A DNA stretch of 21,356 nt, from assembly GCA_004524515.1 (NCBI GenBank), contig SDNV01000039.1, forward strand, positions 1-21,356. Reading direction: 5' to 3'. The DNA is from Promethearchaeota archaeon (GTDB lineage: Archaea; Asgardarchaeota; Lokiarchaeia; Sigynarchaeales; SOKP01). Both the position numbers and the translations under genes were made by a program. The notes beneath the pieces are model-generated. The model was not told the DNA's origin, did not search any database, and was given only the letters and a program-made list of their open reading frames with translations. Position 1 is the first letter of the stretch, and each line of letters begins with the position of its first letter. This document shows positions 2,406 to 20,226 of this stretch, one piece after another.

Positions 2406-3326
2406 ATGTTTAAGGAGAAATTTAAAGAAGGAATAATAAGCGCCAAACAATTCAATAGAGAGGATATTGAGTACATTTTAAAAAAAGGGAAAGAAATGAT
2501 AAAACATACAAATCCAAAATTACTTACAGGAAAGATTTTGGCTACTTTATTCTTTGAACCCTCCACTAGAACTCGTTTTAGTTTTGAATCTGCTATGTAT
2601 AGATTAGGAGGAAATGTAATAGGTTTTCAATCCGGGGATGTTTCCTCAATTAAAAAAGGAGAAAGTATCGCAGACACAATTAGAACTGTAGAGAATTATT
2701 GTGATTGTATTGTAATGAGACATCCATTAGAAGGTTCCGCTAAATTAGCATCCAAATTTGCTAAAATTCCAATTATTAATGCGGGGTCAGGCAGTGGTGA
2801 GCACCCTACACAGGGATTACTTGATTTACTTACTATTTCTGAAGAGTGTGGAACCTTAGATGGTTTAAACATTGGAATTATGGGAGACTTAAAATATGGG
2901 AGAACAGTACATTCGCTTTCAATATTATTATCGAATTTTGAAGTGAACCTTTATTTTATAAGTCCTCCAGAATTGATGATGCGAAACAGATATAAAGAGT
3001 TCTTAATTAATGAACGAGCTACTAAATTTAAAGAAATAACTCAATATAGAAAAGTACTTGAAATTTTGGATGTACTTTATGTAACACGGATTCAGAAAGA
3101 AAGATTCGTAGATCAGGAGGAATATGAAAGAGTTAAGGAATTCTATGTATTTAATAAAGATGATCTCACAGCAACAAAAAATAGCTTTAAAATAATGCAT
3201 CCTTTACCTCGAATCACAGAAATCTCTCCAGATATTGACGAATCAGAAAAAGCAATCTACTTTAAGCAAACAAATTATGGGTTACAACTTAGAAAAGCAC
3301 TTTTGGCTGAACTTTTAAAAGATTAA
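2406..3326 (+). CDS. pyrB: Aspartate carbamoyltransferase catalytic subunit
   Basis: The enzyme catalyses the committed step of pyrimidine synthesis, carbamoyl phosphate plus aspartate to carbamoyl aspartate. The 306-residue length is normal. The carbamoyl-phosphate loop reads FFEPSTRTRFSFESA (residues 49-63). The 80s loop SIKKGES (81-87) supplies the lysine contributed across the trimer interface. HPLEGSA (106-112), GSGSGEHPTQ (127-136), GDLKYGRTVHS (160-170) and HPLPR (265-269) complete the active site. The ATG lacks an obvious ribosome binding site and may be leaderless, with a TATA-like TTTATTAAAA about 25 bases upstream. The regulatory partner pyrI, which usually follows pyrB in archaea, is absent here; the next gene is on the other strand and the two stop codons overlap. 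Confidence 0.96.
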   Translation: MFKEKFKEGIISAKQFNREDIEYILKKGKEMIKHTNPKLLTGKILATLFFEPSTRTRFSFESAMYRLGGNVIGFQSGDVSSIKKGESIADTIRTVENYCDCIVMRHPLEGSAKLASKFAKIPIINAGSGSGEHPTQGLLDLLTISEECGTLDGLNIGIMGDLKYGRTVHSLSILLSNFEVNLYFISPPELMMRNRYKEFLINERATKFKEITQYRKVLEILDVLYVTRIQKERFVDQEEYERVKEFYVFNKDDLTATKNSFKIMHPLPRITEISPDIDESEKAIYFKQTNYGLQLRKALLAELLKD

Positions 3327-5320
3327 TATTTTATGGTAAAGGCTTGTAGATTAGATTCTAATAAATTTTTTAACTCTTCTTTGTTTGGATATTCAGCCCT
3401 ATCTGGAATATAAGTAAAAAGATTTCCACCATCAAGAATTTTTTCAAACTTTTTGAATAGCATTATTTTTTTATCTAAGGCTAAATTAGAATTACTCCTT
3501 ATAATTTCTAACGGATTTTCTGATAGATCATTGTAATTTACTGGAATTTGTATATTTTTAATACCATTTATGAGATTAAAATTGTGAGGTTGCGTTAAAA
3601 TGAAACATTCATTCTCATCTTCATTTTTTTCTCGAATCAACTCACTTAAAAAGGAGAAGAAATTTATCGCAAAATGTTCACTTTTCTCAGTTCTCTCCAG
3701 TTCAATGCCACAATGGTGGACAATTGCCTCATTTAGTCCTATGAAACTTATTGATTTTAATGCTTGTTCTTTCCAATTATATATATCTTTCTTTAAGAAA
3801 CGGTGGATAATATATTTCCACTGCTTTGAATTATGTAATTTTTTCAATATTAGTTCCAATTTCCACTTAAAGAGTTCAAAAACCGATTTTAATTCATCCT
3901 CAATTAAGCTATAAAACAGAGAATCATTTTGATTTGCTTTTTGGGCAATTTTATATAAATTAATTAATATTTTATCTACGATTATTCTATTTTCATTGAA
4001 ATTTTGGCTTTTTACCTTAATATTTGCCGAGTTTAGTAGGCTAAAGCTTTTTTGATCATAAAATATTATGTTTTTTAAAATAGGTATTGAAATCAGTTCA
4101 TTTAGGTTATTTTGAGAATTATTTGGTTTAAAATGATTAATATAATCGAAAAGAATCAAAGGATTTTGATAATACCGATTCAAGATATCCGCATTATGAA
4201 ATTTTTCTAGAAATAATTTATCTTTTTGAAACAGAGAAACGTTTCCACTTTGTAAATAAGCATTATTATTATAACTAAAATCCAAGGAGAGATGAGACCT
4301 TTTATCCCCATAAAAATCACTATATTCTAAGATTTGAGAAATTAGTAGTTCAAAAAGAAATTTTAGTTTTTCCTCTTCATACTCATAAAAATAAGTTAAA
4401 AATTTTGAATTAAATTCATTTAATAAGATATCTTCAGAGAAGTAAGGTCGTAAGACTTTTAAATTTTCCATAAATTTTAGAACAAATAAAACCAAATCAC
4501 TCAATTTTTTAGAGTTGGTTTTTAAATACGAATTTTTATCATAAAGTTCTTCCAAAATCGTTTCAGTGTGTAAATAGATACTCAGTGGTCTTAATGCCCA
4601 ATAATCTAAATGAAGTAAAATAATCTCGCCAGATAAATACAAATCAGCTAGATTTTTTGGTATCAAGTTCAATAGGAGATATTGTTCAGAAACATCTGAT
4701 CCTAAGATTTTGATAAAGTTAAAAGGATTAATTTTAGAATTTTCAAAATAATTCGAAACTTCAGAAGGAGGTGTGCCTAAACGTGTAAGCCTATGTCTAA
4801 CTTCTTCCAGATCATTTTCTAAGAGAATAACATTAATATACTCTCGCATTAAAGGAGCAGTTAAATAGTTTATTTTGGTGCTATTTAGTCTTTTTTGAAC
4901 TTGTTTTGCAATTTTTTTTGCCAATTGACTTTCCAATTTCCCTTCCTGAATCAAATATTCTTCGATTTTTTTTATATCAAATTTTTCTTTAGAATATTTA
5001 GAAGTTCTTATCATAATTGGCTTGTTAATCTCGTTGAGAACATGCTCCATATCGAAAAGGTATTTTAATATTTTTTTACCCAAATTAGTGATAAAATATC
5101 CCTCCTCTTGAGAAGAAATCAGAGTTAAATCTTTCAGGGAATTTAAATGAAACGAAAAGTTAACGGAATTTGAATTAGTCCCTAAAACCTCTTTTTGAAG
5201 AGCCGAAAATGAAAAAGGAATATTAATATCATTCAATTTTCTTAAAATTTCCCTTCTAATAGGCTGCTGTAAGACTTTTAAAAATTTTCCTAAATCTTTT
5301 GAATTTTTGTCGGAACTCAT
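3323..5320 (-). CDS. Winged-helix / ATP-cone / inactive class III ribonucleotide reductase-like protein; putative nucleotide-sensing regulator
   Basis: The 665-residue product has three visible parts. Residues ~10-95 look like an ArsR-type winged helix (QQPIRREILRKL, the FHLNSLKDLTLI recognition region, YFITNLGKKIL wing). Residues ~100-190 form an ATP-cone (MIRTSKYSKEKFDIKKIEE through IAKQVQKRL), then RHRLTRLGTPPSEV. Residues ~195-665 follow the class III reductase NrdD: ADLYLSGEIILLHLDYW (225-241), ISFIGLNEAIVHHCGIEL (524-541), and DGGNLFTY (630-637). It stops there, before the zinc-binding CxxC pairs and glycyl-radical loop of true NrdD. Only two cysteines exist in the whole protein (C537, C572), so the thiyl-radical cysteines are also missing and catalysis is ruled out. 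The inferred role is transcription control by ATP/dATP, analogous in logic to NrdR. It converges on pyrB with overlapping stops and has its own upstream A/T-rich spacer. Confidence 0.75.
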   Translation of the reverse strand: MSSDKNSKDLGKFLKVLQQPIRREILRKLNDINIPFSFSALQKEVLGTNSNSVNFSFHLNSLKDLTLISSQEEGYFITNLGKKILKYLFDMEHVLNEINKPIMIRTSKYSKEKFDIKKIEEYLIQEGKLESQLAKKIAKQVQKRLNSTKINYLTAPLMREYINVILLENDLEEVRHRLTRLGTPPSEVSNYFENSKINPFNFIKILGSDVSEQYLLLNLIPKNLADLYLSGEIILLHLDYWALRPLSIYLHTETILEELYDKNSYLKTNSKKLSDLVLFVLKFMENLKVLRPYFSEDILLNEFNSKFLTYFYEYEEEKLKFLFELLISQILEYSDFYGDKRSHLSLDFSYNNNAYLQSGNVSLFQKDKLFLEKFHNADILNRYYQNPLILFDYINHFKPNNSQNNLNELISIPILKNIIFYDQKSFSLLNSANIKVKSQNFNENRIIVDKILINLYKIAQKANQNDSLFYSLIEDELKSVFELFKWKLELILKKLHNSKQWKYIIHRFLKKDIYNWKEQALKSISFIGLNEAIVHHCGIELERTEKSEHFAINFFSFLSELIREKNEDENECFILTQPHNFNLINGIKNIQIPVNYNDLSENPLEIIRSNSNLALDKKIMLFKKFEKILDGGNLFTYIPDRAEYPNKEELKNLLESNLQAFTIKY

Positions 5321-5450
5321 TAAATAATTATCAGATTCATTACAATCTTTTATTTCTAATTATAAAATAATAAGTTCATCAATAATATAAAAATTAGGGA
5401 AGATTTGATCTTTTTTACTATTTTAAGTAATATATAGGTGATATCCAAAT

Positions 5451-15141: not shown

Positions 15142-15753
15142 ATGAATAAACTTGGATTGTTAAAATTCAAATTTGTGAATTTCGTTATTCAAATTTTAAT
15201 TTTGAGTTTATTCATCTATGTTTTTAATCACAAATTTACAATAAAGTTTGATGCAGGTATATTAAAAGAGCGGCAAGAGATAATTCAATTTCTTGCTAAT
15301 TATGTAATGTACGATAGGGATGAAATATCAGGAATGAGCTTTATTTTTTCTATTTGGATAATCGTAGCATTGATCCCGGTTATAAACTTTGATGATTATA
15401 AATCTGCATATTCTACAAATCTCTATACATTTTTTTTCCCTAATTTCTTTTTTTATATTTTTTTGAATAGATATTCACCAAATTCATTTAATTCCTATTT
15501 TCCACCTTATATAATAAATACTTTGATTTTAGGATTGTTTTTATTAATATTTACAATTGGTATTTCCATTCTATTAAATAAAACCATAAGAAATAAGAAG
15601 AAATCTCAATTGGAAGATTTTAAAAAGATTGCAGAAAAAATTGAATATACTTGTCCTAATTGCGGGACAAAATTCAATTCTATACCTGTATATTGTTTTA
15701 ATTGTTTAAAAGAATTAACTGTAGATGAAATTTCTAATGGCAACAGACAATAA
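15142..15753 (+). CDS. Membrane protein with C-terminal zinc ribbon, function unknown
   Basis: I do not recognise a family. The 203-residue product has four hydrophobic segments (about 11-28, 65-82, 95-108, 124-145). A basic stretch (IRNKKKSQ) follows the last, then a cytoplasmic-looking zinc ribbon with C171-x2-C174 and C185-x2-C188. Its 3' end overlaps the 5' end of the next gene by 17 bases (29 if the earlier ATG is used), which suggests translational coupling with the first acyl-CoA synthetase-like gene. It may therefore anchor or regulate those proteins at the membrane; that is speculation from position only. Confidence 0.75.
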   Translation: MNKLGLLKFKFVNFVIQILILSLFIYVFNHKFTIKFDAGILKERQEIIQFLANYVMYDRDEISGMSFIFSIWIIVALIPVINFDDYKSAYSTNLYTFFFPNFFFYIFLNRYSPNSFNSYFPPYIINTLILGLFLLIFTIGISILLNKTIRNKKKSQLEDFKKIAEKIEYTCPNCGTKFNSIPVYCFNCLKELTVDEISNGNRQ

Positions 15754-17212
15754 TAAGATATCTTTAGATGGTTTGTTTAAACCTAAAAATGTAGCAATAT
15801 ATGAAGCAAAAGAAAAGTTTGCATATTTTATTGAGGGGTTTAAAACTCAAGGCTTCAATCTAGAAAATTTATATTTAATATCTCCTACAGAAGAGGAATT
15901 ATTTGGGATAAAATGCTATAAATCAATTGATGATATCCCAACTGGCACGATAGATTTATTAATCTTAGCTGTAAGAAGAGAAATACTTATTCAAACCTTA
16001 AAAGAAATTTTATCGAAAAAAAAAGTAAATTTTATTCACTTTTTCACCGCAGGTACTGGAGAATATGATGAAATAGGATTGAAAATTGAGGATGAGTTAA
16101 AACACCTTTTAGATTATAAATATCGCGATGTAAAAGCAATCGGACCAAATTGTATGGGGGTGTATTGTCCAAAAGGAAAAAATTCGTATTTACCGATATT
16201 TCCTACAGAGAGTGGTATAATCGCGTTAGTTTTTCATTCCGGTGATTTGTGTTCTAGGACCATAATGTATGGGAATATTAGATATAATCTCAAATTCTCT
16301 AAAGGAGCGAGTATTGGCAACTGTGTTAGTTTACAAGTCTCTGATTTTTTAGAATTTCTTAATCAAGATGATGAAACTGAGATAATATGTATATATTTTG
16401 AAGGTTTTACTCGTTATACAGATAAGGAAGGGAGGAAATTATTTAATATTCTAAAAAATATGAGAAAACCGGTTCTATTCTTGAGAGGAGGCAAAACTAA
16501 AAGAGGACAAACTGCGGTATTAACCCATACGGGGTCATTAGGTACTGATGAAAGTATATGGCAGGCAATATATAAACAAACCCCGTTAATTGAGGTAGGA
16601 AGTTCATTAGATGAATTAATAGATTATATATTTATGTTTAATACATTTTACAAAAATAATCGAAATTTAGCATTAAAGGAACAAATTAATATTTATCCAA
16701 AAGGAAAAAATGCTTTGGTAATATTATGGTCAGGAGGCTTAGGAATCATTGATACTGATACCCTTATAGAATTAGGAGTGAATTTACCTTTGTTTAATGA
16801 TAAAACTAAAGAAAAATTATTGAAGATATATCCCGTAAAAATAGGATCTCTTTCTAATCCCCTTGATTTACCATGGATTTCAAGATCTGAAGGGTATCTT
16901 GATTTATGTAAGGCCGCAATTTCAGAAAATGTAGATCTTATTATAATGCATTCAGATCCTCGGCGTCGAGACAAGAAAAGTTTTGAAGATTACTATAGTC
17001 TATTAAAAGAAATTAAGGAGCATGTAGAATCGCTAAAAAAAACATTAATCTTAATTGTCCCTGAATATCCTGATAACTGGAGAAAAAAATATTATCAAAT
17101 GCTCATAAGAGATGGATTTATTGTTTATCCTGAACTCGAAAGAGCTGCGAAATCATTCTTAGCGTTTTATGAACATGGACAAAAATTAAGAAGATTAAAG
17201 AATAGAGATTAG
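15737..17212 (+). CDS. Acyl-CoA synthetase (NDP-forming) alpha-subunit-like protein, paralogue 1
   Basis: The 491-residue protein follows the alpha subunit of ADP-forming acetyl/acyl-CoA synthetase. It has a CoA-binding Rossmann domain (LFKPKNVAIYEAKEK, ~13-27), then GPNCMGVY (136-143), HSGDL (167-171), FSKGASIGN (187-195), and a third domain with GSLSNPLDLPW (370-380). The catalytic phospho-histidine position is kept as LTHTGSLGT (His264). In typical members the Rossmann loop reads GAS; here Gly is replaced by Glu (YEAK), so CoA or nucleotide binding may be altered. The ATP-grasp beta part is neither fused nor adjacent. ATG 15737 gives the N-terminal length seen in the two paralogues; ATG 15725 is the alternative. 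It is first of three tandem copies. Confidence 0.85.
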   Translation: MATDNNKISLDGLFKPKNVAIYEAKEKFAYFIEGFKTQGFNLENLYLISPTEEELFGIKCYKSIDDIPTGTIDLLILAVRREILIQTLKEILSKKKVNFIHFFTAGTGEYDEIGLKIEDELKHLLDYKYRDVKAIGPNCMGVYCPKGKNSYLPIFPTESGIIALVFHSGDLCSRTIMYGNIRYNLKFSKGASIGNCVSLQVSDFLEFLNQDDETEIICIYFEGFTRYTDKEGRKLFNILKNMRKPVLFLRGGKTKRGQTAVLTHTGSLGTDESIWQAIYKQTPLIEVGSSLDELIDYIFMFNTFYKNNRNLALKEQINIYPKGKNALVILWSGGLGIIDTDTLIELGVNLPLFNDKTKEKLLKIYPVKIGSLSNPLDLPWISRSEGYLDLCKAAISENVDLIIMHSDPRRRDKKSFEDYYSLLKEIKEHVESLKKTLILIVPEYPDNWRKKYYQMLIRDGFIVYPELERAAKSFLAFYEHGQKLRRLKNRD

Positions 17213-17221
17213 GCGTAAAAA

Positions 17222-18697
17222 ATGTCAAAGAATGTAGAAAAATCTAACTTTTTAGATTCGCTTTTTAAACCAAAAACAGTTGCTATTTATGGAGCGAGTG
17301 AAAAATCAAAGCATTTTTTTGGTGGTTTAAAAATCCAAGGATTTGATATAAATAAAATCTACTTAATAAACCCCTCAAGAGCGGAATTATTCGGTTTAAA
17401 GGTATATCACTCACTCAAAGAGGTTCCAGAAGATGTTATAGATCATCTCATAATAACAATAAGAAGAGAAAAATTAGTTGATAGCTTAAAAGATATCTTT
17501 TCACAAAAAAAAATAAACATAATTCATATTTTTACCGCTGGAACCGGAGAATTTGATGAGGAGGGAGTAGATATTGAAAGAGAAATTAAAGGTCTACTAA
17601 ATGATGATAAAATTAAAACTAGGATTATCGGCCCTAATTGTATGGGAGTGTATAGTCCAAGCGGACATATTGCCTATTTAAAAAGTTTTCCTCAAGATCC
17701 CGGAAATGTTAGTTTAATATTCCAATCTGGTGATTTACATACTAGATTAATTAAATTTGGAAATTTAAGATATGGACTTACCTTTTCAAAAGGAGTTAGT
17801 ATAGGTAATACTATAGATCTTCAAGTATCTGAAGTGTTAGAATATTTTAATAATGATGAGGAGACTGATATTATTGCAGTATATTTCGAAGGCTTTTCTA
17901 GTTTCCACCCAAATGAAGGCCGAAATTTAATAAATATGCTAAAAAAAATGAAAAAACCCGTTCTTTTTATGAGAGGGGGTGAGACACAAAGAGGACAAAC
18001 GGCTGTTTTAACCCATACGGGGACAATAGGAACAGAGCAAAAGATATGGGATGCTGTATATAAGCAAACCCCTATAATCAAGGTTCCTACATCTCTGGAT
18101 TCTATTTTAGATTATATTTATATTTTTTATGCATATATTAATAGATATAAAAAAGTTGGAATCAAAGCTAAAGATATTCCATATCCATCGGGAAAAAGAA
18201 CTCTTGTAATTTTATGGTCAGGAGGTTTCGGTATATTAGCTACTGATACGCTTACCAAATTAGGGTTAGAGTTGCCAACTTTTAAAGGTGAAACTTTAGA
18301 AAAACTAAGAAAAATATATCCGATCAAAATTGGGAGCTTATGTAACCCTTTAGATTTGCCCTGGATTGAACATACTGAAGAATATCTAGAAATTAGCAAA
18401 GCGGCTATTTCTGAAAATATTGATCTTATTTTAATTGAAACAGATGTTTCTTCTAACTTTATGCAATCAAAACATTTTCAAGGTTATTATTCCAATTTAA
18501 AAAAAATCAAAGAATATGCAGAATCTTTAAACAAACTACTCATCTTGATTTTGTATCAATATCCAAGTCCCAGTCGAGAAGAATATTATAATATGCTTAT
18601 TGAGGAAGGATTTATAGTATATCCTACTCTTTCACAAGCCGCTCATGCCTTCTTAGCATTATCTGAATATGGGCAGAAAAAAAATACTAAAATCTAA
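17222..18697 (+). CDS. Acyl-CoA synthetase (NDP-forming) alpha-subunit-like protein, paralogue 2
   Basis: This 491-residue protein is collinear with paralogue 1 along its whole length. It is the only one of the three that keeps the canonical Rossmann loop, VAIYGASEK (20-28). Other landmarks are IFTAGTGEFDEEG (103-115), GPNCMGVYSP (137-146), FQSGDLH (167-173), FSKGVSIGN (188-196) and LTHTGTIGT with the candidate phospho-histidine His265. The SxSGA signature of common members is SGD here. It starts 9 bases after the paralogue 1 stop and so is almost certainly in the same transcript. If one copy is a working catalytic alpha subunit, this is the best candidate. It would need a beta (ATP-grasp) subunit from elsewhere in the genome. 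Confidence 0.87.
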   Translation: MSKNVEKSNFLDSLFKPKTVAIYGASEKSKHFFGGLKIQGFDINKIYLINPSRAELFGLKVYHSLKEVPEDVIDHLIITIRREKLVDSLKDIFSQKKINIIHIFTAGTGEFDEEGVDIEREIKGLLNDDKIKTRIIGPNCMGVYSPSGHIAYLKSFPQDPGNVSLIFQSGDLHTRLIKFGNLRYGLTFSKGVSIGNTIDLQVSEVLEYFNNDEETDIIAVYFEGFSSFHPNEGRNLINMLKKMKKPVLFMRGGETQRGQTAVLTHTGTIGTEQKIWDAVYKQTPIIKVPTSLDSILDYIYIFYAYINRYKKVGIKAKDIPYPSGKRTLVILWSGGFGILATDTLTKLGLELPTFKGETLEKLRKIYPIKIGSLCNPLDLPWIEHTEEYLEISKAAISENIDLILIETDVSSNFMQSKHFQGYYSNLKKIKEYAESLNKLLILILYQYPSPSREEYYNMLIEEGFIVYPTLSQAAHAFLALSEYGQKKNTKI

Positions 18698-18756
18698 AGA
18701 TGAAAAATAATTTGAAAATTTATACTCATTATGAATAATTAGAATTGATTCTATAC

Positions 18757-20226
18757 ATGATAAGTGAAAAAAAAAATTCTTTAGATGCTTTATTTTATCC
18801 TAAGAACCTTGCGATTTATGAGGCAAGTGAAAAATTATGGTATTTTATGATGGGTTTGGAACAGCTTAAATATGATAAAACTAAAATATATTTAATCAAC
18901 CCATCAGAGCAGAATCTATTTGGTTTAAAATGCTATAAATCTTTAGATGACGTGCCTGATAAAACTATTGATCTTCTTATATTAGCTGTTGGAAGACATC
19001 GACTAACCGAAAGTCTAAAGAAATTATTAACTCAAAAACCTATTAAGGCTATTCATATCTTTACTGCGGGTACCGGAGAATCTGATAATCAAGGAGCAGA
19101 AATTGAAAAAGAAGTCTTTAATTTATTAAAAAACAATAACGGCAGCACTAGAGCCATAGGACCAAATTGTATGGGAGTTTATTCAGCTAAAGGACGCTTA
19201 GCATATGAACCTTTATTTCCAAGAGAACCTGGAAATATTTCTTTAGTGTTTCAATCAGGGGATCTCCATTCCCAAACGCTCAGACTTGGTTCGGAACGTC
19301 ATAGTCTAAAATTTTCTAAAGGGGTTAGTATTGGAAATTGTGTTGATCTTCAAATTTCTGATTTTCTGGAATATTATAATAACGATATTGATTCAGATTT
19401 GATTTTGGTTTACTATGAGGGTATTAACTCACTTCATCCAAATGAAGGAAAAAGATTATTTAAAACCTTAAAAATGATGAAAAAACCTGTTTTATTTATG
19501 AATGGAGGAATGACAAAAAGAGCACAAACCGCAGTATTAACCCACACTGGCTCAATTAGTACGAATCAAAAAATATGGGAAGGAATATTCAAGCAAACTC
19601 CCATAATTCAGGTTCCAAGCTCTCTAGATGATATGCTTGATTATACATATCTTTTTAATGAAGTAATTAAAAGATACAAAAGAAATAAAAAGGAGATAAA
19701 ATATCCAAAAGGTAAAAATGTCTTAACCATTCTCTGGTCCGGAGGATTTGGAATTATCGCAACAAATACTTTAACGGAGTTAGGTTTAAATGTACCTTAC
19801 TTTCAAGGTGAAACTTTAGAAAAATTAAGAAAAATATATCCTGTAAAAATCGGTAGCCTCTCCAATCCTTTAGATTTACCATGGATATCTTTTTCAGATA
19901 AATACCTTGAAGTTGCGTTAGCTGCAATTTCAGAAGAGATGAACCTTGTAATGATATTAACCGATGCATGGGATGATTTTGAGGGTGATCGTTTTAATAC
20001 CTACTATAATAACCTATTAAAAATAAGGGACCATACAGAATCGCTGAATAATGTCTTTATTTTAATTCTTCCTGAATATCCCGCTCGAAGACGTAAAAGA
20101 TTTATGGATAGGTTAATGAAAGACGGATTCATCGTGTTTCCCTCTATTAGAAGAGCAGCAAAAGCCTATTTAGCGCTTTATGAATATGGCAGAAAGAGTA
20201 AAACTCTAAATGATAATCAAAGTTAG
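18757..20226 (+). CDS. Acyl-CoA synthetase (NDP-forming) alpha-subunit-like protein, paralogue 3
   Basis: The third copy has 489 residues from ATG 18757; the frame also opens at TTG 18745. It shares the full domain order of the other two: ALFYPKNLAIYEASEK (11-26), GPNCMGVYSAKGR (135-147), FQSGDLHS (165-172), FSKGVSIGN (186-194), LTHTGSIST with His263, and the later GSLSNPLDLPW. Like paralogue 1 it has Glu in place of the Rossmann-loop Gly (YEAS). It also has NGGMTKRAQ where paralogue 2 has RGGETQRGQ. A 59-base gap separates it from paralogue 2. Retention of all three, with changes clustered in the ligand loop, suggests different ligands and not simple redundancy. Confidence 0.85.
   Translation: MISEKKNSLDALFYPKNLAIYEASEKLWYFMMGLEQLKYDKTKIYLINPSEQNLFGLKCYKSLDDVPDKTIDLLILAVGRHRLTESLKKLLTQKPIKAIHIFTAGTGESDNQGAEIEKEVFNLLKNNNGSTRAIGPNCMGVYSAKGRLAYEPLFPREPGNISLVFQSGDLHSQTLRLGSERHSLKFSKGVSIGNCVDLQISDFLEYYNNDIDSDLILVYYEGINSLHPNEGKRLFKTLKMMKKPVLFMNGGMTKRAQTAVLTHTGSISTNQKIWEGIFKQTPIIQVPSSLDDMLDYTYLFNEVIKRYKRNKKEIKYPKGKNVLTILWSGGFGIIATNTLTELGLNVPYFQGETLEKLRKIYPVKIGSLSNPLDLPWISFSDKYLEVALAAISEEMNLVMILTDAWDDFEGDRFNTYYNNLLKIRDHTESLNNVFILILPEYPARRRKRFMDRLMKDGFIVFPSIRRAAKAYLALYEYGRKSKTLNDNQS

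Follow-up and report, generated by a model that had tools for sequence, protein, structure and literature searches.

The window, as the whole stretch of 21,356 nucleotides of archaeal DNA analysed here is called, contains beside pyrB a gene for a protein that consists of a winged helix, an ATP-cone and a body resembling class III ribonucleotide reductase (NrdD). Is this protein, for which REG is used as a working name, a reductase, a truncated copy of one, or a regulator built from one? Because a dead reductase joined to a nucleotide-sensing domain and a DNA-binding domain is encoded mostly beside a pyrimidine-synthesis gene, REG is probably an unrecognised nucleotide-responsive regulator. We know of no general regulator of transcription for dNTP supply in archaea. 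REG would be a ready candidate for this role, because a match to it is found in 82 of 227 genomes of the Asgard phylum (E≤1e-50), and because it offers a candidate ligand (ATP/dATP), a candidate element and a suggested target.

Architecture and conservation of REG

The features of the locus are listed in Table 1. The winged helix is detected by the DUF7347 profile and stands where NrdR has an N-terminal zinc ribbon, which is not found in REG. It is followed by an ATP-cone of the kind present in NrdR, the bacterial RNR repressor, which binds paired boxes at RNR promoters in dependence on ATP/dATP. The cone of the window protein scores under the Pfam cut-off; the cones of its relatives are detected by profile. 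A search of the window protein against the PDB with phmmer gives no true match. In the structure, both the ATP-cone and the NrdD barrel are found, and the fold matches those of known NrdDs. The domain order proposed in the preliminary description is supported. The body has the barrel fold of class III ribonucleotide reductase, and the thiyl and reductant cysteines (C125, C329 and C330 of Thermotoga maritima NrdD), the zinc motif CxxC...CxxC and the glycyl-radical tail are all absent from it. The window protein contains two cysteines only, none of them before C537, in agreement with the earlier statement that all catalytic and zinc cysteines are gone. According to excerpts of PMC4493059, the C329A and C330A variants of T. 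maritima NrdD show background activity only, and C125 has a role in the reductive half-reaction. The window gives no matches in scans for RNA and tRNA. Elsewhere in the window, three tandem paralogues of about 490 aa each, which form one cluster, are encoded on the forward strand (15725-17212, 17222-18697 and 18745-20226); by eye, they resemble parts of NDP-forming acyl-CoA synthetase.

Table 1. Position of REG, its domains and the adjoining features in the window
Feature	Position	Strand	Basis or remark
pyrB, aspartate carbamoyltransferase	2406..3326	+	Pfam; convergent with REG, 4-bp overlap with the end of REG
REG gene, 665 aa, winged helix, ATP-cone and NrdD-like pseudoenzyme	3323..5320	-	
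NrdD-like barrel, REG residues 200-665, lacking the catalytic cysteines and the zinc/glycyl tail	3326..4723	-	
ATP-cone, REG residues 100-190, most conserved region	4751..5023	-	Pfam match below cut-off, relatives, structure
Winged-helix domain, REG residues 12-96, DUF7347/ArsR-like	5033..5287	-	Pfam
TATA-box-like TTTTTATATTA, downstream of the element	5383..5393	-	by eye
Conserved upstream element TATCACCTATATATTACT (family consensus TATCACCTACATATTATC), candidate operator	5426..5443	-	between S7 and REG

The window protein is matched by 440 proteins at E≤1e-3, of which the best 120 were taken. Together with the window protein, these 121 close proteins are 561-675 aa long, and all but one have at least 638 residues. 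The counts for the close family refer to 119 aligned proteins (638-675 aa), from which P0002, identical to P0001, and P0012, with 561 aa, were dropped. C537 is invariant in these 119 proteins, cysteine occurs in at most 24 sequences at every other column, and neither a CC pair nor a CxxC motif in the last 120 residues is present in any of them. The DUF7347 and NRDD profiles match 47 of 47 close relatives, and the ATP-cone profile matches 40 of 47. A profile search gives 2509 proteins at E≤1e-20, and the names among the best 120 of these are Lokiarchaeia, Hel-, Odin-, Baldr-, Jord-, Njord-, Frey- and Hodarchaeota and Methanomethylicota. Where database names are given among the best 120 of the 440 and the best 120 of the 2509, they read reductase, ArsR or HTH regulator, or both.

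A longer branch of the family comprises 84 sequences from Asgard archaea and Methanomethylicota. All three domains are detected in 53 of 53 longer relatives, with HTH_5 in 39 and HTH_20 in 33 of them, and the HTH signature of the winged helix is kept in REG relatives. All four zinc cysteines are present in 78 of the 84 sequences and the radical glycine in 69. In one canonical Lokiarchaeal NrdD, the columns of T. maritima C125, C329 and C330 are all occupied by cysteine. In the longer relatives, cysteine is found at the C125 column in 0/84, at the C329 column in 0/84 and at the C330 column in 1/84, and the CCR motif in 0/84. HxH, named as the NrdD substrate-triphosphate motif in the part of PMC11226230 consulted, is missing, by the pattern used, from all 84 longer and from six of seven close proteins. 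The ten canonical NrdDs used for comparison were those caught by a pattern (690-730 aa, from 20 loci and from L002, L003 and L005), so that canonical NrdDs with inteins or missed by the pattern lie outside this set. By eye, the canonical nrdD frames of L002/L005 (G001) and L071 (G134), about 1187 aa long, carry an intein-like long insertion at RPF/C.

The preliminary description held that orthologues with an intact glycyl-radical tail would mark this copy as merely truncated. Such orthologues exist as far as the zinc cysteines and the glycine are concerned; however, none of the 84 longer relatives has cysteine at the C125 or C329 column or a CCR motif. This result indicates a long-dead family rather than one truncated copy. 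Truncation of a normal nrdD is ruled out by the constant length, by the separate, fully supported group described below and by selection. The reuse of a reductase scaffold, suggested earlier for the window protein, is supported, as is the loss of the catalytic residues. Many Asgard proteins named 'anaerobic ribonucleoside-triphosphate reductase' are consequently unlikely to be reductases, which bears on the reconstruction of Asgard metabolism.

The tree contains 50 rows, namely 21 of the 84 longer sequences (every fourth), seven close REG proteins, 18 NrdDs and four members of a second dead group. REG occupies one side of a branch with 100/100 support and is called one group in this unrooted sense; two REG rows have long branches. 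The CC pair is present in 12 of the 12 NrdDs added to the tree, as CCR in nine and as CCA in three. The NrdDs in which CCA replaces CCR at the radical-cysteine motif (L083, L089 and L102) are grouped at 100/100 and include the one encoded beside REG in G003. The second dead group is an independent Lokiarchaeal NrdD paralogue of 599-602 aa (L003:1186-2994, L072, L073 and L075), which has an ATP-cone and a body, lacks the winged helix, CCR and tail, and forms its own clade inside the canonical Lokiarchaeal NrdDs.

In nine close pairs, dN/dS is 0.19-0.39 for the whole REG gene, and the NrdD body is under purifying selection. For the ATP-cone, eight pairs give 0-0.15 and the ninth gives 0.42; in one of the nine pairs the cone is not the most constrained part. 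Among 119 relatives, at least 99% identity is found at 35 of 91 ATP-cone positions vs 10 of 85 winged-helix positions, and at 17/106, 2/142, 20/136 and 3/85 positions in successive blocks of the NrdD body. The ATP-cone is the best-kept part of REG, and purifying selection is usually strongest there.

Linkage to pyrB and the promoter element

Gene neighbourhoods were compared at 42 loci (40 fetched stretches, the window and L001), which represent a subset of the REG genomes. At the 25 close loci, pyrB lies within 300 bp of REG in 25 and is convergent with it every time, and S7 lies within 300 bp in 18. At the 17 longer-branch loci, some of which are closely related (L137/L138, L140/L142 and L151-L153) and therefore not independent, pyrB lies within 300 bp of REG in eight, within 1 kb in ten and within 5 kb in 12, whereas the next commonest neighbours are found within 5 kb in six. 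At five of the 17, two of them on contigs shorter than 10 kb, pyrB was not found in the fetched stretch. The pyrB neighbour pointed out in the preliminary description is thus a recurrent one. Because convergent genes share no promoter, the linkage in the close family could be inherited gene order.

This leads to the strongest alternative, in which REG is a DNA-binding, nucleotide-sensing autoregulator, its linkage to pyrB is ancestral only, and its real targets lie elsewhere, among RNR, replication or purine genes. The close-family neighbourhood, which is mostly kept as a block of rpo, nusA, S7, pyrB and eL42, agrees with this alternative, as does the near-confinement of the element described below to the promoter of REG itself. 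However, the block is reshuffled at the 17 longer-branch loci, and yet pyrB still exceeds every other neighbour within 5 kb by the counts given above. The order of the two genes also varies there: it is convergent, pyrB-first, as at L137 and L138 (G091 and G092; one strand, 6 bp between the genes), or REG-first, as at L148 and L150. In G003, REG is flanked by pyrB on one side and by a convergent canonical nrdD on the other. We therefore consider this alternative rather unlikely.

The sequence TATCAC(C/G)NNN(A/G)TA(T/A)(T/C)A is found upstream of REG in 31 of 31 close-family genes (the window and 30 genomes), 94-123 bp before the REG start, with the start codon taken as the start of the match. 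It is not an obvious palindrome. In the window, it gives one match at up to three mismatches vs 0.07 expected. By eye, the downstream TTTTTATATTA resembles the archaeal TATA-box consensus. When the loci are scanned with a matrix at a threshold of 13 bits, a copy is detected before REG at 21 of 25 close loci, seven of which were not used in building the matrix; no copy at or above this threshold is found near REG at the other four or at any of the 17 longer-branch loci. The scan of all 42 neighbourhoods (704 kb) gives three sites other than those before REG. One of these three, a weak match of 14.1 bits, precedes pyrB, on the pyrB strand, at L135, and the element is not found at the other 23 of the 24 close-family pyrB promoters. 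Before seven further neighbour genes, with 13-23 promoters for each, no match exceeds 3 bits, and the only match of at least 14 bits at the nrdD loci lies about 1.2 kb past the nrdD 3' end, at L077. In eight genomes, 11 sites with at most one mismatch are found, five at REG (in five of the eight genomes) and six elsewhere, and the reversed pattern used as a control gives 12 sites in the same genomes. No regulon defined by the element was found in these eight genomes, at the nrdD loci or in the 42 neighbourhoods. Because the element is confined mainly to the REG promoter and the control gives a similar number of sites, the element fits autoregulation by REG without a regulon, with a hint at pyrB in one genome.

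Other upstream sequences were noted. A 14-bp palindrome, ATTAATCGATTAAT, precedes the pyrB-REG operon in G091 and G092 and occurs once per genome; these two genomes are related, and about 0.3 sites per genome are expected by a rough reckoning from base composition. By eye, the regions upstream of canonical nrdD (L059, L061, L062, L064, L065, L068 and L069) contain a TATA-like TTTTTATATC, followed by an AT-rich near-palindrome, TATTAACG(A/T)TAATA, and later by a CCGACAAAAT block, possibly a candidate operator.

Distribution of REG, NrdR and reductases

Bacterial-type NrdR, described as rare in archaea in the part of PMC9110341 consulted, is detected above cut-off in seven of the 227 genomes (G056-G062), none of which carries REG. 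In four genomes, G088, G089, G091 and G092, REG is present, PF13597 gives one weak match or none, PF02867 gives none, and class II RTPR is detected above cut-off in all four. In G088 and in G091, the one weak match to PF13597 is presumed to be REG itself. REG of G088 is located on a contig of 4.36 Mb; the four assemblies may be incomplete. Because these genomes contain REG and a class II reductase yet show no class III, REG seems to outlive the class III reductase, allowing for assembly gaps.

These genomes bear on the alternative that REG acts at the protein level, as a dead subunit on catalytic NrdD or on aspartate carbamoyltransferase, with the winged helix as a protein-interaction module. 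Pseudoenzyme subunits are common, and the linkage to pyrB and the location of REG in G003 are compatible with such a role. However, REG is kept in the four genomes although no catalytic NrdD is detected there, which weakens the case for an obligatory NrdD subunit, and PyrI, the usual regulatory chain of aspartate carbamoyltransferase, is found in 183 of the 227 genomes, so that REG as a general substitute for PyrI is rejected. In addition, the winged helix is conserved together with its HTH signature. This alternative is therefore improbable. It is even less probable that REG has kept an enzymatic activity towards a nucleotide, through chemistry that dispenses with the usual cysteines, the winged helix providing feedback as in a trigger enzyme, because, for all the zinc sites and radical glycines of the longer branch and the purifying selection on the NrdD body, the C125-column cysteine, CCR and, by the pattern used, HxH are missing from all 84 longer relatives, and the branch of the window lacks both the tail and the catalytic segment.

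Proposed role of REG and comparison with known systems

From the computed architecture, catalytic loss, single supported group, selection, pyrB linkage and promoter element, we infer the DNA binding, ligand, switch and targets of REG as follows. In Asgard archaea and some Methanomethylicota, REG would act as a transcription factor derived from a class III reductase that has lost catalysis. Its N-terminal winged helix would bind DNA, its ATP-cone would bind ATP/dATP and report the nucleotide state, and its dead NrdD body would serve as a dimer scaffold, perhaps keeping an effector site. Known ATP-cones answer ATP/dATP by a change in oligomeric state, according to the portions of PMC11226230 and PMC9110341 consulted. 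Nucleotide binding to REG may similarly alter the packing of the subunits, in such a way that the paired winged helices either fit the operator or do not. REG would act on its own promoter and, very likely, on genes of pyrimidine and dNTP supply, with pyrB first in line. We consider it fairly probable that REG is a pseudo-reductase transcription factor that senses through its ATP-cone, regulates itself and is tied to pyrimidine and dNTP supply. The zinc site and glycine kept in the longer branch count against this reading, because a pure scaffold does not obviously need them. Whether REG proteins represent a third kind of ATP-cone protein, namely archaeal pseudo-reductase transcription factors that couple pyrB to dNTP supply where NrdR is rare and that persist after the exchange of class III for class II, is in our estimation evenly balanced. 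In searches of the open-licence literature of PMC, no paper recognisable as an account of an NrdD pseudoenzyme with an HTH or winged helix was listed, and the term 'helix-turn-helix' is absent from the text of PMC9669993 and PMC3019208.

REG resembles NrdD in that an ATP-cone precedes an NrdD barrel, and its fold matches those of the P. copri, T. maritima, T4 and S. thermophilus enzymes. It differs from NrdD in its additional N-terminal winged helix, in the lack of thiyl and reductant cysteines and in its separate position in the tree; in the branch of the window, the zinc/glycyl tail is lost as well. Archaea also contain regulators in which an enzyme is joined to an HTH domain, of the RbkR riboflavin kinase type and the ThiR/ThiN type. 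As in these proteins, a pathway enzyme domain would be reused in REG as the sensor of a fused HTH protein; REG differs from them in that it is derived from a reductase, has a dedicated ATP-cone and contains a dead enzyme part.

In five of the seven NrdR genomes, and at all five loci read, one reading frame encodes a complete NrdR joined to an NrdD with CCR, which may be regarded as a natural parallel to REG. At these loci (L178-L182, from G057-G060 and G062), NrdR (zinc ribbon and ATP-cone), an apparent second ATP-cone and NrdD with CCR occupy one frame, which ends inside the C-terminal zinc ribbon. Downstream translation of L178, L179 and L182 places the glycyl-radical part (CPxCxS...RVVGYF) in an ORF of its own, about 80 aa long and in a different frame, which is followed by an NrdG-like gene. 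The reductase at these loci may be split, with a tiny subunit carrying the radical. In NrdR, as in REG, a DNA-binding domain is joined to an ATP-cone, with autoregulation by REG as a candidate only; the switch of REG would resemble that of NrdR in manner, and would operate through an unrelated DNA-binding domain, because a winged helix replaces the zinc ribbon in REG, to which a dead reductase body of about 470 aa is added.
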